Assembly: GCA_001873005.1 (NCBI GenBank)
Contig: MNYE01000107.1
Span: 2,126 to 18,264 of the forward strand
Origin: Dehalococcoidia bacterium CG2_30_46_9
GTDB taxonomy: Bacteria > Chloroflexota > Dehalococcoidia > GIF9 > AB-539-J10
Direction of reading: 5' to 3'
DNA length: 16,139 nt
Numbering within the stretch: the first letter of the stretch is position 1; each line of letters starts with the position of its first letter. The translations under genes and the position numbers were made by a program. Shown piece after piece: positions 304 through 12,277 of the stretch. The notes beneath the pieces were generated by a model, which was not told the DNA's origin, made no database searches, and worked only from the letters and a program-made list of their open reading frames with translations.

Positions 304-363
304 TGTCATTCTGAGCCGAAGGCGAAGAATCTCCGAGACCCTTCGCTTCGCTCAGGGTGACAT
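304..363. repeat. TGTCAT-bounded hairpin repeat inside element 1
   Basis: This is an imperfect inverted repeat whose outer arms are TGTCATTCTGAGC and GCTCAGGGTGACA; the two mismatches would be G-U pairs in RNA. Internal parts such as GAATCTCCGAGACCCTTCGC resemble the pieces at 6712-6735 in truA. It would fold in the leader of the pdxS transcript. Confidence 0.7.
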
Positions 364-366
364 AAG

Positions 367-385
367 CCCTGAACTTGATTCAGGG
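367..385. repeat. 19-bp palindrome, non-coding copy
   Basis: CCCTGAACTTGATTCAGGG is identical to the copy at 6783-6801 in truA and is a one- or two-base variant of those in mnmA, rpoA and the Ycf45-like gene. The stem is CCCTGAA/TTCAGGG around a short loop. Confidence 0.9.
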
Positions 386-1326: not shown

Positions 1327-1380
1327 TAAACTCTAAACACATTAGGAATTTGTCCTGAACTTAATTCAGGATAGAGTTTA
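1327..1380. repeat. Nested inverted repeat between pdxS and the Ycf45-like gene
   Basis: The outer arms TAAACTCTA (1327-1335) and TAGAGTTTA (1372-1380) are perfect 9-bp inverted copies. Inside them, TCCTGAACTTAATTCAGGA (1353-1371) is a perfect-stem variant of the 19-bp palindrome. Relative to the CCCTGAA/TTCAGGG copies, both outer bases of the stem have changed together (C to T and G to A), so pairing is kept. It occupies most of the 81-bp gap and could fold in the mRNA just before the next start codon. Confidence 0.75.
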
Positions 1381-1389
1381 ACCATTTGA

Positions 1390-2880
1390 ATGCGAAAGGT
1401 AATTACTGACGACCTAGATGCTCTCCTTGATGTTTTGCCCTCGCATATTCGTGAGCCTCTTTACCACCAACCTGATTATAATGAATTACTTGAAGTAGTT
1501 CTAGATTTAGGACGTTTTCCCGAAGCACGTTTTCCTCATCGAGAACTGGTACTTAACTCCCAGGAGGTAAACCAATCTGATATTGATTATGTAGTGTCCC
1601 GTCTTGGTGAGTTTACGGGAGATAACCGCGCTGGCATTGAGCGCACTCTTCATCGCATTTCCGCCATACGCAACAGAAACGGACGTATAATTGGTTTAAC
1701 TTGCCGTGTAGGCAGAGCCGTCTTCGGCACTGTAAAGATGGTTCAAGACCTTATCGAACCAGGCAAGAATGTCTTGTTACTGGGACGACCAGGAATAGGT
1801 AAGACAACTATTTTGCGGGAAGTTGCCCGAGTGTTAGCTGATGAATTGAAAAAACGTGTCATTGTAATCGATACCTCCAACGAAATTGCTGGTGACGGTG
1901 ATATTCCTCATCCGGCTATTGGACATGCTCGGAGAATGCAGGTAACCCATCCGAGCATGCAGCACGCGGTAATGATTGAAGCGGTGGAAAATCATATGCC
2001 TGAGGTCATCATTATTGATGAAATAGGTACTGAACTAGAAGCACAAGCAGCCAGAACTATTGCGGAACGCGGCGTGCAATTGATAGGTACGGCCCACGGA
2101 AATACTCTAGAAAACTTGATCATGAATCCTACTTTGTCCGACCTCGTAGGTGGTGTCCAGACGGTTATTCTGGGCGATGAAGAGGCAAAACGGCGCCACA
2201 CACAGAAATCTGTTCTGGAGCGCAAAGCACCTCCTACCTTCGATGTAGTAGTGGAAATCTTGGATTACTACAAAGTAGCTGTCCATCCTGACGTGACGCA
2301 AGCTGTGGATGCTATTTTGCATCAACAACCCCTACTAGCCGAAGTCCGCTGGTTGGATGAGACTGGAGAAGTGCATAAAAAGACGAATGGTAGAGAAAAT
2401 TCCGTCTTAGGTAGGGGCGAGCATGCTCGCCCCTACCAAGTGGCGGATAAAGTACTACGATTCTATCTCTTTGGTGCCAGCCGTTCCCGTTTGGAGCAGG
2501 TTGCCAAGGAAAAGCAAAAAGAACTTATAATTGCCACTGATTTAAGACAAGCTGATATTCTCCTCACTACACGGAGTCATTATTGCCGCAAGCCACAGAA
2601 GATAAGAGATGCTGAGGCATCAGGCATACCAATTTACGCCCTGAAAAACAACAATCTTGTTCAAATAAGGCGGTGCTTGGATGCTATCTATCCCACTAAT
2701 GGTGAATCACCATACATTCATTATTTGCAGTATTTGCTAAGCCAGCATCATGACCTTAATTCCAATGCCAGCCACCGTGTTGACCCTGAAACAAGTTCAG
2801 GGAAAGAGAATGAGAGCAAGGTAAGTCCTGAGCCAGTGAGCCGAAGCCCTGAACGAAGTGAAGGGGAAGGATCTAAATAG
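1390..2880 (+). CDS. Ycf45-like / SpoIIIAA-type AAA ATPase with altered C-terminal R3H region
   Basis: The product has 496 residues. An N-terminal region (about 1-115) is followed by an ATPase core: Walker A GRPGIGKTT at 132-140, the DTSNEIAGDGDIPHP segment near 161-175, Walker B EVIIIDE at 205-211 and a GTAHG sensor-like motif at 233-237. The core resembles the SpoIIIAA/Ycf45 group of ATPases found in cyanobacteria, plastids and Chloroflexota. A second conserved segment (about 351-432, with ADILLTTRSHYCRKPQKIRDAEASGIPIYALK-like sequence) is typical of Ycf45 proteins, which then usually end in an R3H single-stranded nucleic-acid-binding domain. Here the YIHYLQYLLSQHH region (442-454) lacks the expected R and H pair, and residues from about 465 are written by repeats. 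Residues 341-350 come from a 28-bp palindrome. No Shine-Dalgarno sequence is obvious. The precise role of the family is uncertain. It overlaps tmk by one base. Confidence 0.85.
   Translation: MRKVITDDLDALLDVLPSHIREPLYHQPDYNELLEVVLDLGRFPEARFPHRELVLNSQEVNQSDIDYVVSRLGEFTGDNRAGIERTLHRISAIRNRNGRIIGLTCRVGRAVFGTVKMVQDLIEPGKNVLLLGRPGIGKTTILREVARVLADELKKRVIVIDTSNEIAGDGDIPHPAIGHARRMQVTHPSMQHAVMIEAVENHMPEVIIIDEIGTELEAQAARTIAERGVQLIGTAHGNTLENLIMNPTLSDLVGGVQTVILGDEEAKRRHTQKSVLERKAPPTFDVVVEILDYYKVAVHPDVTQAVDAILHQQPLLAEVRWLDETGEVHKKTNGRENSVLGRGEHARPYQVADKVLRFYLFGASRSRLEQVAKEKQKELIIATDLRQADILLTTRSHYCRKPQKIRDAEASGIPIYALKNNNLVQIRRCLDAIYPTNGESPYIHYLQYLLSQHHDLNSNASHRVDPETSSGKENESKVSPEPVSRSPERSEGEGSK
2410..2437. 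repeat. 28-bp perfect palindrome inside the Ycf45-like gene
   Basis: GGTAGGGGCGAGCA is followed directly by its exact reverse complement. Read in frame it gives G-R-G-E-H-A-R-P-Y plus the first base of a Gln codon (residues 341-350). It falls between the ATPase core and the second conserved segment, so it probably lengthens a linker. A 14-bp perfect stem with no loop would make a strong cruciform or RNA hairpin. Confidence 0.95.
2784..2802. repeat. 19-bp palindrome inside the Ycf45-like gene
   Basis: CCCTGAAACAAGTTCAGGG is identical to 4027-4045 in mnmA and is the reverse complement of 6996-7014 in truA. The frame here is CCT GAA ACA AGT TCA GGG (P-E-T-S-S-G), different from the CTG frame used in mnmA, truA and rpoA. 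Confidence 0.9.
2824..2866. repeat. Repeat-derived end of the Ycf45-like gene
   Basis: The stretch AGTCCTGAGC...CCGAAGCCCTGAACGAAGTG has the composition and CCTGAGC/CCGAAG/GAAGTG pieces of the repeats at 304-363 and 6712-6735. It encodes the final S-P-E-P-V-S-R-S-P-E-R-S-E-G-E-G tail. The adjoining AAGGA (2866-2870) is the likely ribosome binding site of tmk. Confidence 0.6.
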
Positions 2881-3515
2881 TGTTGGGACTACTTATTGCA
2901 TTTGAGGGAGGTGAAGGCTGTGGCAAAAGCACCCAGGCAAAAATTTTGTGGAAGAATTTATGCCAAAACATTCCGGTGATACTGGTACACGAACCCGGAG
3001 ATACAGCTCTAGGCGATAAGATAAGGAAGTTACTTAAAAGAAAGCAAAGTTACTCTATTTCGCCTGAAGCTGAGTTGTTCCTTTTTGTAGCTTCCCGTGC
3101 CCAATTGGTATCTGAAATAATTCGCCCCGCTTTAGAGGCAGGAAAAGTAGTCATCTGCGACCGTTTTGCCCATTCCACCCTGGCTTATCAGGGCTATGGT
3201 AGAGAACTTAACCTGAGTGCTGTAGCGGCGATTAATAATCTGGCAACACAAAACCTTAAACCAGACCTTGCCATCCTTCTGGATATACCTCCAGAGCAAG
3301 GATTGGCACGAAAGCAAAGTCCAAGGGACCGTTTCGAGCTGGAGGATTTGTCTTTCCATTGTCGAGTAAGAGAGGGCTATCTTAGGATAGCAGCACCTGA
3401 GCCTAGCCGCTGGCTAATAATAGACGCTATGTTACCCAAGACAAAAATCAGTCACATTATCTGGGAGAGGGTAAGCCAGCTATTACCTCTCCCCTCGTCA
3501 TTGCGAGGAGCGTAA
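2880..3515 (+). CDS. tmk: Thymidylate kinase
   Basis: This enzyme phosphorylates dTMP to dTDP with ATP, an essential step toward dTTP. The product has 211 residues. Evidence is the P-loop GGEGCGKST (10-18), the EPGDT...R segment (38-49), the DRF...S..AYQG motif (94-104) and the basic SPRDRFE segment near 147-153 followed by F...VR.GYL. The start is a GTG sharing one base with the TAG of the preceding gene, with AAGGA 9 nt upstream, so translation is likely coupled. Residues about 196-211 are written by an inverted repeat and by the first part of an ATTGC...GCAAT hairpin repeat, and the stop TAA lies inside that repeat. The last ten residues are thus probably a dispensable acquired tail. Bacterial Tmk is usually 200-215 residues. 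Confidence 0.96.
   Translation: MLGLLIAFEGGEGCGKSTQAKILWKNLCQNIPVILVHEPGDTALGDKIRKLLKRKQSYSISPEAELFLFVASRAQLVSEIIRPALEAGKVVICDRFAHSTLAYQGYGRELNLSAVAAINNLATQNLKPDLAILLDIPPEQGLARKQSPRDRFELEDLSFHCRVREGYLRIAAPEPSRWLIIDAMLPKTKISHIIWERVSQLLPLPSSLRGA
3463..3493. repeat. Inverted repeat at the end of tmk
   Basis: GGGAGAGGGTAA (3463-3474) pairs with TTACCTCTCCC (3483-3493) with a single bulged G. The loop is 8 nt. There is no following T-run, so it does not look like a standard intrinsic terminator. Confidence 0.7.
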
Positions 3516-3532
3516 GCGACAAAGCAATCTCG
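3496..3532. repeat. ATTGC...GCAAT hairpin repeat between tmk and mnmA
   Basis: CGTCATTGCGAGGAGCG leads into AAAGCAATCTCG; ATTGC (3500-3504) and GCAAT (3524-3528) are the stem. It is related to 6676-6697 (truA end) and 15972-15993 (before rpsH). It provides the last residues and the stop codon of tmk and most of the 54-bp spacer before mnmA. Confidence 0.8.
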
Positions 3533-3569
3533 CTATACGCTACTCTGTGCGATATACTTATAAGCACCT

Positions 3570-4793
3570 ATGAGTAAAGGGAAGGTAGCTGTAGCATTAA
3601 GTGGTGGAGTGGATTCCTCTGTGGCGGCTTTACTACTCCAAAGAGATGGCTACGAAGTCTGGGGAGTACACATGCGCTTGTCGGACTCTCTGCGCTCTCA
3701 AGCTCAAGCACACCATGCTGAGCAGGTATGTCATACTCTAGACATTCCCTTTCAAATAATGGATTTGCGAAAGGTGTTTGGACGCTATGTAATTGATTAT
3801 TTTTGCCAGGAATACCAGCACGGCTGGACCCCCAACCCTTGCATCGCCTGCAATCAACACATCAAATTCGGTGCATTGCTTAATAAAGTCCTTTCTCAGG
3901 GCATAGATTACATTGCTACTGGACACTATGCTCGGATTAGCCAAAGTCATGGCCCTGAGCTGAAGCTCCGAGCACAGCGAGGAGGCAGCGAAATAACTGA
4001 AGACTTTGCCAAGGATAATCTCCAACCCCTGAAACAAGTTCAGGGCAAGTACCACTTGCTTAAAGGGGTAGATGTCAGCAAGGACCAATCCTATTTTCTT
4101 TGCACTTTAAGTCAAGAAAAACTCAGCCATATTCTTTTTCCGTTAGGTAGCTATAGCAAAGACGAAGTCCAGAAGATAGCTAAACAAGAGGATTTGCCGG
4201 TAGCCAGCAAATCCAGCCAGGATATTTGCTTTATCTCGGAAAAGAATTACCGTGCTTTCCTTAGGGAACGTCTTTCCCAGAGACCTGGAGATATCGTAGA
4301 TGTTCAAGGGAAGTTATTGGGACACCATCAAGGCATAGCTTTCTACACTATTGGGCAAAGGCATGGTTTAGGATTGGCCTTTGGTAAGCCTCTCTATGTT
4401 TTAAGGATTGAGCCTGATAATGACAAAATTATTCTTGGCGAGGAGAGTGAGCTTTACAGTCAGGAGGCTATTGTCAAAAACCTGAGCTGGGTATGTGGTA
4501 TGGCACCATCCGTCCCTTGCCAAATAAGGGGCGGCGTGGACGAGGGCCTCCTACCACCCCCCACTAGCGTTAATGCTAAAATACGGTATAAATCGAGAGA
4601 AGCTGCAGCTACATTGTTGACGAAGGGTGATTCTGTCGTTGTCCTGTTTTCCCAACCACAGTGGGCAGTTACCCCGGGACAAGCTATCGTGTTCTATAAG
4701 GGTGAAGAGGTATTAGGTGGTGGCATTATCGAAAGTTCAAAGCCAATAATAAAGGTGAGGAAGGAAATTGAGGTCACAGCCACCAAATCTTGA
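3570..4793 (+). CDS. mnmA: tRNA-specific 2-thiouridylase MnmA, with two repeat-derived insertions
   Basis: MnmA thiolates U34 at position 2 in tRNAs for Lys, Glu and Gln, using ATP to adenylate the base and persulfide sulfur. The PP-loop SGGVDSS is at 11-17, the first catalytic Cys is C91 in NPCIACN, and the second is C220 in SKSSQDICFI. The KDQSYFL segment (171-177), IGQRHGL (261-267) and the C-terminal AVTPGQAIVFY (366-376) are all present. At 407 residues it is longer than the usual 350-380. Two segments explain this. Residues about 127-160 include PLKQVQG from a 19-bp palindrome. Residues about 313-332 come from the 21-bp repeat and its flank. Both fall in loops between conserved blocks, so the enzyme is probably active. 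No clear Shine-Dalgarno precedes the ATG. The gene overlaps rnhB by 26 bp. Confidence 0.96.
   Translation: MSKGKVAVALSGGVDSSVAALLLQRDGYEVWGVHMRLSDSLRSQAQAHHAEQVCHTLDIPFQIMDLRKVFGRYVIDYFCQEYQHGWTPNPCIACNQHIKFGALLNKVLSQGIDYIATGHYARISQSHGPELKLRAQRGGSEITEDFAKDNLQPLKQVQGKYHLLKGVDVSKDQSYFLCTLSQEKLSHILFPLGSYSKDEVQKIAKQEDLPVASKSSQDICFISEKNYRAFLRERLSQRPGDIVDVQGKLLGHHQGIAFYTIGQRHGLGLAFGKPLYVLRIEPDNDKIILGEESELYSQEAIVKNLSWVCGMAPSVPCQIRGGVDEGLLPPPTSVNAKIRYKSREAAATLLTKGDSVVVLFSQPQWAVTPGQAIVFYKGEEVLGGGIIESSKPIIKVRKEIEVTATKS
4027..4045. repeat. 19-bp palindrome inside mnmA
   Basis: CCCTGAAACAAGTTCAGGG is read as part of CCC CTG AAA CAA GTT CAG GGC, giving P-L-K-Q-V-Q-G at residues 153-159. It lies in a stretch without counterpart in typical MnmA proteins, just before the conserved YHLLKGVD block. 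Confidence 0.92.
4511..4551. repeat. 21-bp repeat and flank inside mnmA
   Basis: Positions 4511-4531 are the exact reverse complement of 14-34, and the trailing GAGGGCCTCC also follows the copy near 6232-6242. It encodes roughly residues 314-328 (V-P-C-Q-I-R-G-G-V-D-E-G-L-L). The conserved family sequence resumes at VNAKIRY. Confidence 0.85.
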
Positions 4794-5406
4794 TCATGAG
4801 GATAAGCTCAAATCGCAAGGTTACGAGCTTATCGCTGGCGTTGATGAGGTGGGGAGAGGAGCCCTTGCTGGCCCGGTAGTTGCTGGCGCTGTTATCCTGC
4901 CAAGAAATTATTCCCCTTGGTTTGAACTAGTTAGAGATAGTAAGGAGCTCAGTCCTAAGAAGCGTGAATGTCTTTTCCACTTGATTACTCAAGAAGCTAT
5001 TGCTGTCGGAGTTGGCATCGTTTCCCAGGAGGTAATTGATACCGTAAATATCCTCGAAGCAACCAAACTGGCTATGATGCAGGCAATAGAAAAACTACCT
5101 GAACAAGCGCAATATCTCCTTATTGATGGATTAACTTTAATGATTTCTATTCCTCAGAAGGGGATAATAAAAGGCGATAAGCTGTGCCTCTCCATTGCTT
5201 GCGCCTCCATCATAGCCAAGGTAACTCGAGACCATATTATGGAAGAGCTTGATAAGGTCTATCCTGGTTATAGTTTAGCCAAGCATAAAGGTTATGCCAC
5301 TGAAGAACATATTTCCCGCTTGAAGCAACTGGGACCATCACCAATCCATCGTCTCTCTTTCGCCCCTGTTAGGAATGTCATTGCCAGCCATGTTCCTCTC
5401 CCTTGA
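4768..5406 (+). CDS. rnhB: Ribonuclease HII
   Basis: RNase HII cuts RNA in RNA-DNA hybrids and starts removal of ribonucleotides misplaced in DNA. The product has 212 residues. It carries AGVDEVGRGALAGPV (23-37) with D26 and E27, DSKELS (57-62), LLIDG with D120, and AKVTRD with D155, which together give the expected D-E-D-D metal site, plus GDK at 136-138. The start is taken as TTG at 4768 because no in-frame ATG occurs between it and the conserved core and GGTGAGG lies about 7 nt upstream. This makes a 26-bp overlap with mnmA and suggests coupled translation. rnhB next to yraN is a common arrangement in bacteria. Confidence 0.95.
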   Translation: MRSQPPNLDHEDKLKSQGYELIAGVDEVGRGALAGPVVAGAVILPRNYSPWFELVRDSKELSPKKRECLFHLITQEAIAVGVGIVSQEVIDTVNILEATKLAMMQAIEKLPEQAQYLLIDGLTLMISIPQKGIIKGDKLCLSIACASIIAKVTRDHIMEELDKVYPGYSLAKHKGYATEEHISRLKQLGPSPIHRLSFAPVRNVIASHVPLP

Positions 5407-5418
5407 AGCTCAAATCAA

Positions 5419-5784
5419 ATGAACCGTCAAGAAGTTGGTACGCTAGGAGAAAAACTAGCGCAAAAATTCCTAAAAAGAAAAGGCTACCGTATTCTAGAGA
5501 CAGGTTTTCGCTGCCGTGAGGGGGAAATTGATATTATTGCCCGGCAAAAGGATTACCTTGTTTTTATTGAGGTTCGCACTAAAAGTAATTTAAATTTTGG
5601 CACTCCGGAGGAATCAATAACGCAAAGCAAGAAGAAAAAACTCATTGCCTCCGCTCTCGCCTACATAAATGCTCACCAAAAGGTGCCATCCTTATGGCGC
5701 ATAGATGTTGTAGCTATAGAGATTGATACGAAGGGCAAAGCAAAACGCATTGAGTTGATTGAAAATGCTATCGGGCAGGATTAA
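5419..5784 (+). CDS. yraN: YraN/UPF0102 family endonuclease-like protein
   Basis: The 121-residue product matches the YraN family: an N-terminal GTLGEKLAQKFLKRKGY helix region, REGEIDII (33-40) with E36 and D38, and the FIEVRT segment with E51 (the family usually has EVK or EVR). These residues form a PD-(D/E)XK-type nuclease fold similar to Holliday-junction resolvases. The cellular role is poorly defined. It follows rnhB after 12 bp and is probably cotranscribed with it. No good ribosome binding site is seen. Its stop lies only 7 bp from the stop of the converging rpsI gene. Confidence 0.92.
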   Translation: MNRQEVGTLGEKLAQKFLKRKGYRILETGFRCREGEIDIIARQKDYLVFIEVRTKSNLNFGTPEESITQSKKKKLIASALAYINAHQKVPSLWRIDVVAIEIDTKGKAKRIELIENAIGQD

Positions 5785-5791
5785 CTCCAAT

Positions 5792-6187
5792 TTATCGCTT
5801 AGTATATTGTGGTGCCTTACGAGCTCTCTTTAGCCCATATTTCTTGCGCTCTTTGATCCTGGCATCTCGGGTAAGCAGACCTTCTTTTCGCAGTAGTGGC
5901 TTAAATGCCTCGTTTTCCTTGGCTAAAGCTCGAGTAATACCATGGCGAATGGCACCGGCTTGACCACTTATACCACCTCCTGCTACCTTTATAGTGGCAT
6001 GAAACTTGCCTGAGGTATTAGTAGCTACAAAGGGACTCTCGATTGTGTGGCGATGTTCAAGCCGAGGGAAAACTTCTTTGTAGGGCTTGCCATTGATAGT
6101 GACTTCGCCATCGCCGGGAAAAAGTCTAACCTGAGCTACAGCACATTTACGCTTTCCTGTTGCCCAAATATATGTCTCGTCACTCAT
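5792..6187 (-). CDS. rpsI: 30S ribosomal protein S9
   Basis: S9 is a head protein of the small subunit whose C-terminal tail reaches the P-site tRNA. The 131-residue product has the family blocks [30 protein letters not shown] and [29 protein letters not shown] sequence, ending in the invariant KR. It is the last gene of the minus-strand ribosomal cluster, downstream of rplM as in many bacteria. The ATG overlaps the end of rplM by 8 bp because rplM carries an added tail. GAGGT about 8-12 nt upstream, inside that tail, may serve as the ribosome binding site. Confidence 0.97.
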
Positions 6188-6668
6188 TGATTATTACCTC
6201 ACGTCCCTCGCCAGATAAGGGGAGAAGAGGGGAGGGCCTCCTTTTTTCTTTCACCAACTTCACTTGAGCTTGGTGTGGGTGTTCACCACCGGAATATACC
6301 TTAAGTTTCCTGAACATAGCTCTGCCCAAGCTATTATGCGGCAGCATACCTTTAATAGCATGCTCTAGTATATACTCAGGCTTGCTATTAAATATTTCTT
6401 TAAAGGTAGGACTTTTCAGCCCTCCAGGGTAGCCCGAATGGCGATAATAGATTTTCTGCTCTGCTTTTTTCCCAGTTACCTTTATTTTAGCCACGTTAAT
6501 TACCACCACATAGTCACCGGTATCGAGGTGAGGAGAATAGATTGGCTTGTGCTTGCCCATAAGCAAGTTGGCTACCTGCGAAGCTAGTCTTCCCAAAGTT
6601 TTACCTGTTGCATCAACCACATGCCATTCCCTTTTTATATCCTTAGCTTTAGTGCTATAAGTTTTCAT
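6180..6668 (-). CDS. rplM: 50S ribosomal protein L13 with repeat-derived C-terminal tail
   Basis: L13 is an early assembly protein of the large subunit. I start it at the ATG at 6668 ([20 protein letters not shown]), which overlaps the truA stop as ATGA. An in-frame extension to 6707 is only truA and repeat sequence. Family blocks include [37 protein letters not shown] and [20 protein letters not shown]...HPHQAQ. Normal proteins end soon after HPHQAQ at about 142-148 residues. Here 162 residues are encoded, and the last 20 or so ([16 protein letters not shown]) come from the 21-bp repeat family. The tail pushes the stop codon into rpsI. Confidence 0.96.
6202..6242. repeat. 21-bp repeat and flank at the end of rplM
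   Basis: 6202-6222 matches 4511-4531 at 19 of 21 positions in the same orientation. GAGGGCCTCC follows about 10 bp later in both copies. It encodes the C-terminal tail of L13 on the minus strand. Confidence 0.8.
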
Positions 6669-7510
6669 GCTAGTGATTGCCGCGCTTCGCTCGCAATGGT
6701 ACCCCACAGCCGAGATCCTTCGCTTTGCTCAGGATAATTTACCTTCATAAGGTACAAGCCACAGGGAGGAGCTACAGGATTGCCCTGAACTTGATTCAGG
6801 GCTAAATTCTTTGCCTCCACAATATCTTGGAAATTCCTGGTGCTAATCTTCCCGAGACCAGACCTTAGTAAAAGCCCCACAGTGCGGCGCACCTGGTGAG
6901 GCAAGAAAGAATTGGCTACCATGCGGAAAATAGTAAAATTTCCTCTTCTCTCAACCTTTGCTTCATAAACATAACGCACTGTACTTTTGCCCTGACCCTG
7001 AACTTGTTTCAGGGGATTCAGGGCTAAAGAACTGGTAAAAGACATGAAATCATGTTTACCTTGGATGAGTTGACATGCCTCATTCATTGCCTCTATGTTT
7101 AACATTCCAGGTACAAATAAAGCAAATCTCTGACCGAAGGGTGAGCGTGTATTCCGATTAAGGATATAATAATGATACTCACGACTTAGAGCATCACGCC
7201 GAACATTGAAATCGCCATCAGCTATACCGGCAGCTTTGACGGCGATATCCTGAGGTAAATAATAGTTTAATGCCTTGACCAGCGTTGTAAGAGATAAACT
7301 TGGTTTAGCCCAGAAACTTACTACCTGCCCTTTTGCATGCACACCAGCATCAGTTCTACTAGCTGCCGTGACACGACTGCTTCCGCCACAAAATTTCTTC
7401 ATAGCTTGCTCCAGTTCATTCTGAATAGTAGGCAAATCAGCTTGCCATTGGAAACCATGATAATGTGTGCCATCATACTCCATAAGCAAAATATACTTAC
7501 TAGAATTCAC
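6665..7510 (-). CDS. truA: tRNA pseudouridine synthase A with repeat insertions and tail
   Basis: TruA converts U38-U40 of the tRNA anticodon arm to pseudouridine. Evidence is the N-terminal [11 protein letters not shown] (11-21), the catalytic Asp54 in [13 protein letters not shown], the [16 protein letters not shown] block (101-116) and [16 protein letters not shown] (200-215). At 281 residues it is longer than the usual 245-265. Residues about 162-174 ([13 protein letters not shown]) are a repeat insertion in the DFMSFTS...KSTVRYV loop. Residues 236-243 (LALNQVQG) are a second one before [10 protein letters not shown]. The tail from about 261 ([25 protein letters not shown]) comes from two further repeats. 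The start is a GTG that shares one base with the rplQ stop, so expression depends on coupling. It overlaps rplM by 4 bp. Confidence 0.95.
6676..6735. repeat. Two repeats forming the 3' end of truA
   Basis: ATTGC (6676-6680) and GCAAT (6693-6697) enclose CGCGCTTCGCTC; this is the hairpin repeat also seen at 3500-3528. Next to it, GAGATCCTTCGCTTTGCTC (6712-6730) belongs to the CTCAG/CTTCGC family of 304-363. Together they encode the last 20 or so residues of TruA. Confidence 0.75.
6783..6801. repeat. 19-bp palindrome inside truA (distal)
   Basis: CCCTGAACTTGATTCAGGG is identical to 367-385. On the minus strand it is read in the CTG frame and gives L-N-Q-V-Q-G, just before the conserved APPCGLYL block. 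Confidence 0.92.
6990..7023. repeat. Nested 19-bp palindromes inside truA (proximal)
   Basis: A complete palindrome CCCTGAACTTGTTTCAGGG (6996-7014) is bracketed by CCCTGA (6990-6995) and GATTCAGGG (7015-7023). The bracketing pieces are the two halves of another copy. It looks like one element inserted into another. It is translated as [13 protein letters not shown]. Confidence 0.85.
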
Positions 7511-7863
7511 TACTTAACCAATTCAATTTTAACCATAGGGGCATTATCACCAGGGCGGGGGCCCAATTTCACTAACCTTGTGTAACCACCAGCCCGGTCA
7601 GCATATTCCGGAGCAATTTCATGGAACACCTTGTCTACCACCTTTTTGTCAGTAAGGAAAGCTAAAACCCGCCGTCTTGAAGCAAGGCTACCGTCTTTTC
7701 CCAGGGTGATTATCTTCTCTGCCAAGCCGCGGGCCTCCTTAGCCTTGGCTTCAGTAGTAATAATTTTCTCGCACGCGAGCAAAGAGGTAACCAAATTGCG
7801 ATATAGTAACCAACGATGCTCTGTTCGCCGACCTAATTTCCTGCCACCTACTCGATGTCTCAT
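7510..7863 (-). CDS. rplQ: 50S ribosomal protein L17
   Basis: L17 is a large-subunit protein near the exit tunnel. The 117-residue product has the family start [20 protein letters not shown], the [18 protein letters not shown] block, and ends with the typical [23 protein letters not shown] sequence. The ATG overlaps the rpoA stop as ATGA, and GGAG (7872-7875) lies 8 nt upstream, next to the repeat in the rpoA tail. The order rpoA-rplQ is the conserved end of the alpha operon. Confidence 0.97.
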
Positions 7864-8795
7864 TCTTTCTTCTCCGAACCCTGAACTGGATTCAGGGCTA
7901 ACCTGGCAATTAAAGTCTCCACTTCCTGTCTTGATTTAGCTCCAAGTCCGGGCAATTGAGGCAAGCCTTGTTTACCTCGCTCTAGTAACTGTCCCAATGT
8001 GAAAATACCAGCTCTTTTTAAACTATTAAAAGACCGCACTGATAAATTCAATTCTTCCAAAGGAGTATTATATTGCTCCACTGAAACACCTGGCTCTTTG
8101 GGCAAATACGCCGCATAAACTGCCAGGTCTCGGAAGGGGGAAAACTGATTAATCAGGATGGCAGTGGCTTGACTAACCGCATCCTCAGGTGAAATGGTAC
8201 CATCAGTCCAAACTTCCAAGCTGAGTTTCTCTGGGCTTCTCTCCTCACCAGGCCTGATGCGTTCTACGGAGAAATTGACTTTTCGCACCGGGCTGAAAAT
8301 GGCATCTACCGGTAGTGCTCCCGCAGGTAAGCCATCAGAGGATTTAACCGTCACATAACCTCTCCCCAATTCCACATTGAATTCGACACAAAGCTTGGCC
8401 CCAGAAGAATCCAGAGTAGCTAAGTAAAGCTCGGGGTTCGCGATCTTGAAATCCACCGAGGGTTTAATATCAGCAGCGGAAACCTTGCCTTCTCCTGCCA
8501 CTTCCAAGAATAGTTTCCCTGCTTCATGAGAAAGAGGACATGTCCTTAGTTCCTTAACATTGAGCAAGAATTCTATAACATCCTCTTTAACACAAGGAAT
8601 AGGAGAGAATTCATGCTGAATTCCCTCAATTCTCACCCATGTTACCGCAGCGCCAGGCAGAGAACGAAGAAGCATACGACGCAAAGCATTGCCCAGGGTG
8701 ACGCCAAAGCCCGGCTCCAGAGGCTCGGCAAGAAAACGACCATAACTACCAGCAACTTCAACTGTAGTTACTTTGGGTATAGGTAATTCAAGCAT
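7860..8795 (-). CDS. rpoA: DNA-directed RNA polymerase subunit alpha
   Basis: This is the alpha subunit, a dimer that nucleates RNA polymerase assembly and contacts activators and UP elements. The product has 311 residues. The N-terminal domain (1 to about 230) contains [46 protein letters not shown] sequence. The C-terminal domain (about 240-299) contains [20 protein letters not shown] and [19 protein letters not shown]. After that come 12 extra residues, [12 protein letters not shown], of which ALNPVQG is written by a 19-bp palindrome. The start ATG lies 7 bp after the rpsD stop, with AGGA-type sequence upstream. Neighbours are the standard alpha operon. Confidence 0.97.
7879..7897. repeat. 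19-bp palindrome at the end of rpoA
   Basis: CCCTGAACTGGATTCAGGG has a one-base loop change from 367-385 with the stem intact. On the minus strand it is read as CTG AAT CCA GTT CAG GG (L-N-P-V-Q-G), immediately after the last helix of the alpha C-terminal domain. Confidence 0.92.
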
Positions 8796-12158: not shown

Positions 12159-12277
12159 AAATTAAAGTAACTACACAGCCTCAATGTCATTCCGAACTTG
12201 TTTCGGAATCTCAGCGAACTTTGGGGATGCTGAAATAAATTCAGCATGACAATATGGGTGAGTAGTTACAAATTAAA
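12159..12277. mobile_element. 103-bp miniature inverted-repeat element, copy 2, with 8-bp flanking duplication
   Basis: The element runs 12167-12269. Its ends GTAACTACACAGCC and, read inward from the right, GTAACTACTCACCC agree at 12 of 14 positions. Exact direct repeats AAATTAAA flank it at 12159-12166 and 12270-12277. Inside, TGTCAT (12185-12190) and ATGACA (12246-12251) form an inner inverted pair. Two hairpins follow: TTCCGAACTTGTTTCGGAA within 12189-12209 and TGCTGAAATAAATTCAGCA (12228-12246). No transposase is encoded. Terminal GTAA with an 8-bp duplication is characteristic of IS66-family elements, so mobilisation by such an enzyme is a reasonable inference. The AT-rich surroundings weaken the duplication argument. 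Confidence 0.65.

Follow-up and report, generated by a model that had tools for sequence, protein, structure and literature searches.

The window analysed here, a 16,139-nt stretch of the genome of Dehalococcoidia bacterium CG2_30_46_9, carries copies of a 19-bp palindromic hairpin both in intergenic gaps and inside conserved genes. The host genes encode a SpoIIIAA/Ycf45-like ATPase (1390..2880, + strand), MnmA (3570..4793, + strand), TruA (6665..7510, − strand) and RpoA (7860..8795, − strand). All seven copies named in a preliminary description of this DNA (starting at 367, 1353, 2784, 4027, 6783, 6996 and 7879) were found again, and those within genes are read in the frames it had given. One copy, CCCTGAACTTGATTCAGGG (367..385, + strand), is intergenic and lies 9 bp 3' of a hairpin of a second type (CCCTTCGCTTCGCTCAGGG, 339..357, + strand), and a diverged copy with three mismatches, TCCTGAACTTAATTCAGGA (1353..1371, + strand), is intergenic ahead of the SpoIIIAA/Ycf45-like gene. 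The copy in the C-terminal tail of that gene (2784..2802, − strand) is translated as PETSSG and is followed within the tail by a related hairpin of another type, CCCTGAACGAAGTGAAGGG (2847..2865, + strand; peptide PERSEGEG). The mnmA copy (4027..4045, − strand) gives LKQVQG, the two truA copies (6783..6801 and 6996..7014, both + strand) give LNQVQG and LKQVQG respectively, and the copy in the C-terminal tail of rpoA (7879..7897, + strand) gives LNPVQG. Allowing up to three mismatches there are 15 strand matches in the window, two of which are the related hairpin at 2847, against a mean of 0.09 over 200 shuffles. The truA copy at 6996 is present as described but is not a simple one: it is nested in an older copy, whose halves CCCTGA (6990-6995) and GATTCAGGG (7015-7023) flank it in a pair spanning 6990..7023 (+ strand), and the peptide is therefore longer (LNPLKQVQG). 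The inner 19-mer occupies the place taken by ACTT in uninterrupted copies.

The same description had placed the inserts in loops or at C-termini where related proteins have nothing, and this is borne out most clearly in truA, where the stretch at 6996..7014 adds nine residues relative to 28 of 28 distinct relatives and that at 6783..6801 adds four relative to 27 of 27. In mnmA it needs amending, as 31 residues ending in LKQVQG are absent from 23 of 23 aligned relatives and the palindrome is thus only part of a larger insert; we found no clear second copy of the remainder (window 3941-4026, about 24 residues) in the fetched part of the genome. For rpoA it is not borne out, since the tail is variable in length (22 residues here, 18–36 in 26 distinct relatives, ten of which have 20) and shows no clear gain. 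In keeping with the insertion that had been supposed, the relatives compared do not share the palindrome peptides.

Similar comparisons were made with 20 of 36 usable gene pieces, selected by presumed gene identity from a choice that drew on a 62-copy codon-score list; 39 queries gave 24 sites with alignments, each relative being counted once. The pieces from outside the window were named provisionally from their sequences, and we take them to be rplC, pheT, ribF, trxB, pyk, pepA, ispD, purD, aroA and so on. The median net gain is 0 residues at two sites, 1 at three, 2 at two, 3 at two, 4 at six, 5 at five, 6.5 at one, 9 at two and 10 at one. At 14 of the 24 sites at least two relatives are in full agreement, with gains of +1 (twice), +2, +3, +4 (four times), +5 (four times), +9 and +10; examples are +4 in 27/27 and 5/5 relatives, +2 in 8/8 and +1 in 6/6. 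The agreed sites with +9 and +10 are nested pairs (truA and locus L080), and these values, as 4+5 and 5+5, are in line with nesting. The 12 agreed single-copy sites have gained 3–15 bp, never 19, with 12 or 15 bp at eight of them, and the +6 or +7 residues expected of a whole 19–21 bp in frame were seen at none of the 14 agreed sites. The shortfall from 19 bp at these sites suggests that each copy took the place of host bases, commonly four or seven, and such swaps keep the reading frame since 19−4=15 and 19−7=12 are both multiples of three. Judged from these alignments, the palindromes are insertions at most of the gene sites.

The genome from which the window derives (G000; 1,075,535 bases in 138 contigs, 82.75% complete) matches the 17-bp core CCTGAACNNGNTTCAGG exactly at 180 places, 86 on one strand and 94 on the other, and at 237 if one mismatch is allowed, with none for a reversed-pattern control; 177 copies distinct by flank were analysed with their surrounding sequence. 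We searched the fetched part of G000 for empty places, in which the left and right eight bases flanking a copy lie close together without an exact palindrome between them. Such places were found for 35 of the 177 copies, compared with 7, 7, 9, 10 and 13 in five controls with mispaired flanks, and for four of the 35 the sole empty place holds a diverged hairpin; none was found for the copy at L022. The commonest middle is 4 bp. In 13 copies the ACTT of a CCCTGA-ACTT-GATTCAGGG hairpin (or its reverse) has been swapped for the 19-mer, a net gain of 15 bp, and at L087 seven bases of a hairpin of this type have been swapped, a net gain of 12 bp; other replaced middles belong to a GCTTCGC hairpin (seven bases) and a GCTT hairpin (four bases).

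Nested copies identified by pattern share one position, 14 in one orientation and one in the other, although in one of the 14 (L084_968) only the right half of the outer hairpin is clear. With up to two mismatches the nested pattern occurs at 16 places in G000 and at none in 50 other hairpin-bearing genomes, and the nested form folds into one long hairpin. In three cases the outer hairpin has a different stem (TGCTGA twice and TTCCGA), which rules out copying of the outer arms as the source there. The loop of a CCCTTCGCTTCGCTCAGGG-type hairpin elsewhere in the genome has also received the 19-mer, and at a purD-like site (L112, +9) the copy lies within another hairpin type. Separately, we observed that at L112 (position 900) and L024 (position 1500) the 19-mer sits inside a repeat, GATTGCTTC...TCGCAATGACA, which in purD-like and aroA-like genes is translated into peptides of the CHCDPETSSGEAIS type; the outer hairpin family at these loci has several interchangeable apices.

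The flanks of 129 copies, with nested copies and duplicates removed, are biased towards T-W-R to the left of the hairpin and Y-W-R to its right, alike for coding and other copies, and the information content drops to background within a few bases of the hairpin, giving sharp 19-bp ends. There is no clear sign of a target-site duplication in these flanks: 2 bp are identical in 13 copies (7.2 expected, shuffle maximum 13), 3 bp in nine (5.5 expected), 4 bp in three (1.1 expected) and 5 bp in none. The bases adjoining the hairpin are mostly not complementary, with G...T in 57 of the 129 pairs and A...C in 21. A longer stem formed by pairing of the flanks was considered and rejected, as complementary bases at −1/+1 are rarer than expected (z = −4.4) and the hairpin therefore does not extend outwards.

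Folded alone, the 19-mer has a 7-bp stem and a 5-nt loop, CTTGT or CTTGA. Copies in other genomes mostly have the form YGTCA-CCCTGAA-CTTGW-TTCAGGG-TC, in which the tagged hairpin has an 8-bp stem. These outside copies agree in tag, stem (8 bp) and loop (5 nt) with the CGTC class of repetitive extragenic palindromic (REP) sequences described in a 2013 survey (PMC3733652), and we conclude that the hairpin is the core of the CGTC-tagged REPs, which in G000 is mostly tagless. The YGTC tag is in place at 8 of 177 G000 copies and at 127 of 143 elsewhere, the latter taken from the matches listed (115 loci) with near-duplicates not removed; in a looser 12-base window it lies to the left of 34 of the 177. 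TC follows the hairpin on its 3' side at 29 of 177 copies in G000 and at 127 of the same 143 elsewhere. Thus the G000 form has a loop within the 4–5 nt of the class, but a stem short of the usual 8–9 bp, no unpaired CGTC (TGTC) end tag at 169 of 177 copies, and, scored by TC only (29/177), not the short unpaired CCA-type tail; it has no associated transposase, judged on the Y1 family alone. Head-to-head dimers are the predominant arrangement in the class. In that survey CGTC REPs are described without a linked transposase and with copies inside genes, two kinds being equated with the Rickettsia palindromic elements RPE-4 and RPE-6, and REPs are recorded inside tRNA pseudouridine synthase genes (PMC3733652).

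Among 41 genomes (G000 and 40 relatives) the core was matched in three, namely G000, G019 (eight copies) and G017 (four copies), and among 400 sampled genomes of the phylum, a sample that excluded G017 and G019, the 19-mer is confined to G000 (137 copies). A scan of one genome per species found the hairpin on at least 115 stretches, the matches listed including Sphingomonadales, Bacteroidetes, Nitrospirae, Melainabacteria, Elusimicrobia, Treponema and Caldiserica, and 50 of these other genomes hold from 1 to 148 copies each, with none for the reversed control. Several further observations concern this distribution. A stretch of G019, which belongs to another genus, is 99.9% identical across 1,380 bp to locus L102 of G000 (L439, G019:C90, 1465-2844) and includes an open reading frame (ORF) of 374 aa carrying both PELVSG and PETSSG, for whose product a Pfam search matched no family; the identity reflects either contamination or transfer of a hairpin-bearing gene. 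The exact 19-mer also occurs on 31 viral-contig stretches (L262-L292), a possible route between phyla. Opposed pairs of hairpins, resembling the dimers known as REPINs (REP doublets forming hairpins), are present in several other genomes (L165, L178, L187, L214, L218 and L223) at spacings of about 46–48, 67 or 110 bp.

We asked how the G000 copies lie relative to reading frames using ORFs of at least 150 codons with at least 40 on either side of a copy, a method that superseded a weak codon-score calling of genes in which 206 of 1,500 random positions passed the strict threshold. Within such ORFs are 64 copies, 63 in an open frame and one in the stop frame (p = 2e-10 against 2:1); with a threshold of 100 codons the numbers are 65 and 2. 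The test leans somewhat to open frames because it requires an ORF on each side, but equal lengths were used in searching the stop-frame class. The non-random use of frames anticipated in the preliminary description is thus seen, as is the likeness it had drawn to the in-gene palindromes of Rickettsia, with copies in frame, two of three frames used and the insertions absent from the relatives compared. The 63 open-frame copies are read as LKQVQ/LNQVQ (26), PESSSG/PETSSG (13), LNLFQ/LNLIQ (12) and PELVSG/PELDSG (12), so that the first is in excess (26/63 against 1/4, p = 0.005), and the two orientations are represented by 39 and 24 copies (p = 0.08). Under the strict codon score 11 copies are read through, in orientations 10 to 1 (p = 0.012), with two apparent frame changes. 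Copies are depleted in long ORFs (63 of 177, or 36%, whereas 64% of 3,000 positions drawn at random from the fetched loci fall in such ORFs), and eight further ORFs of at least 100 codons receive a stop codon from the hairpin. These data fit insertion everywhere followed by loss of harmful events.

It is about an even proposition, in our view, that the hairpin is a non-autonomous, selfish, bare CGTC-type REP stem-loop that has multiplied in one lineage and spreads by replacing host bases. From the anatomy of the sites we infer an enzyme-driven swap. A trans-acting enzyme would cut in the loop of a hairpin or at a target for which there is a weak preference (TWR...YWR), the hairpin would then be exchanged as a unit for host bases, commonly four or seven, and selection would purge stop-frame and otherwise harmful insertions, so that copies persist in loops, tails and gaps. 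More tentatively, and with the balance of judgement against it, the 19-nt hairpin may be a minimal mobile unit that exchanges itself by means of an enzyme for four or seven bases of a target or hairpin loop and, being frame-neutral, can colonise essential genes.

Several observations weigh against replacement by a dedicated activity. A search of G000 (82.75% complete) for Y1_Tnp, the Y1/RAYT (REP-associated tyrosine transposase) domain and the only family searched, found none, and the target preference is weak. The middles of other empty places measure 6, 8, 9, 10 or more bases, the 4-bp class is dominated by nested hairpins, and at nested sites replacement is indistinguishable from a 15-bp insertion, since the inserted copy itself contains ACTT. 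Among the gene sites the 31 residues in MnmA are an exception to the short gains and the RpoA copy brings no clear gain in length. Relatives are in conflict at eight of the 24 (L040, L055, L081, L082, L084_3550, L084_968, L098 and L112), as with +5 against +8, or +5 against −1, so that the medians of L098 (+2) and L084_968 (+6.5) each come from two disagreeing relatives; a further two sites are based on a single relative. The relatives are 50–79% identical over the compared pieces and include no empty/filled pair of close strains, and at such distances later indels could also have shortened the net gain.

A clean insertion of 19 bp or slightly more, with frame and length regained afterwards through small deletions, would account for short gains without any exchange, given that loops tolerate indels, that relatives differ in length at the eight conflicting sites, and that selection for in-frame survivors would mask the original event. 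We regard this course as unlikely, in view of the exact agreement of relatives at 14 sites, the intact hairpins beside the lost bases, and the four bases missing also at non-coding nested sites, which are free of selection on frame. No dedicated enzyme at all would be needed if the hairpin were copied at replication forks by template switching or gene conversion; stalling of forks at secondary structure would fit the variable loss (0–19 bp) and the nesting within hairpin loops, and the absence of a detected Y1 transposase from G000 also speaks for this route. It too seems improbable given exact 19-bp ends, nested copies at one position with the main orientation in 14 of 15, and a flank preference common to coding and other copies and found on both sides; random switching should moreover leave partial copies, although these were not counted.

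Movement in trans by a RAYT (Y1 HUH) transposase, lost or absent from the assembly, has a precedent, as RAYTs are proposed to mobilise GTAG REPs (PMC3733652, PMC8266576). Y1_Tnp matches occur in 26 of the 50 hairpin-bearing genomes, including the high-copy genomes G076 (104 copies), G069 (70), G088 (46) and G114 (43), compared with 4 of 24 genomes of the G000 family and order. We nevertheless give this little credence, for besides its absence from G000 no Y1_Tnp was found in the high-copy genomes G099 (148), G082 (57), G095 (36) and G115 (31), and the 2013 survey lists no transposase for CGTC REPs (PMC3733652). Sphingorhabdus profundilacus is one example of a species rich in the hairpin that has no Y1 match. 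Adjacency to RAYT genes was also rejected directly, the 19-mer being present at 0 of 30 Y1 loci (one per genome, from about 100 matches) within the stretch examined. The preliminary description had seen in the palindrome an element that evolves proteins by adding hydrophilic loops, and retention of a functional element for such loops would agree with the excess of the LKQVQG/LNQVQG frame and the 10 to 1 orientation under the strict codon score. Purifying selection yields the same bias, however, and the idea finds no footing in copies that are depleted in ORFs, lie at differing sites in unrelated genes, and in 24 of 63 cases have the other orientation and give LNLFQG, LNLIQG, PELVSG or PELDSG, among which are hydrophobic versions; we consider it highly improbable. 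A selfish element filtered by selection explains both the mixed orientations and the depletion in ORFs.

Set beside known systems, the hairpin resembles the CGTC REPs (PMC3733652) in its 5-nt loop, in-gene copies, lack of a linked transposase and scatter over phyla, and differs from them in the 169 of 177 G000 copies without the YGTC tag in place and in the nested loop insertions at 16 places. Like the Rickettsia palindromic elements it occurs in gaps and, in frame, within conserved genes, but at 19 bp, with net gains of 3–15 bp at agreed single-copy sites, it is unlike the classical elements of 105–146 bp (PMC2229807). It shares with GTAG REPs and REPINs the form of a short imperfect palindrome, a high copy number and some genic copies, and is unlike those served by RAYTs in the absence of Y1_Tnp from G000 and of the 19-mer beside the 30 Y1 genes elsewhere. 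Bacterial miniature inverted-repeat transposable elements (NEMIS, RUP and ERIC) are likewise non-autonomous, dispersed and sometimes genic, but at 100–200 bp (PMC2229807) they are far longer, and the G000 hairpin has no clear target-site duplication.

In-gene CGTC REPs and the Rickettsia elements are thus already known, and the G000 hairpin is a tagless variant of the former; the exchange of 19 bp for four or seven, its frame-neutral arithmetic and the nesting are new. Neither the kinship with the CGTC REPs nor the shortness of the gains had figured in the preliminary description. No publication on the tagless form or on the 19-for-4 exchange came up in a search of the open-access literature, and among the matches listed in a search by the letters of the hairpin all were unrelated. 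CGTC-type REPs span bacterial phyla, yet the 2013 survey found no transposase for them (PMC3733652). Their mode of movement becomes testable in G000, which provides dozens of flanked events in the form of nested copies, empty places and aligned gene sites, and so offers a concrete case for studying tiny mobile sequences that move without a known enzyme. The repeat has entered truA, mnmA and rpoA and, going by provisional names, rplC, pheT or purD without breaking the frame, and some caution is warranted with peptides of this kind in metagenome proteins, as they can derive from repeats.

The window contains two further features of related kinds. A hairpin of the second type lies in the C-terminal tail of truA (6710..6733, + strand), where it gives the peptide PEQSEGS, and a tagged CGTC-type REP pair with other stems, TGTCATTCCGAACTTGTTTCGGAATCT ... 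GATGCTGAAATAAATTCAGCATGACA, is located at 12185..12251, with no strand assigned.

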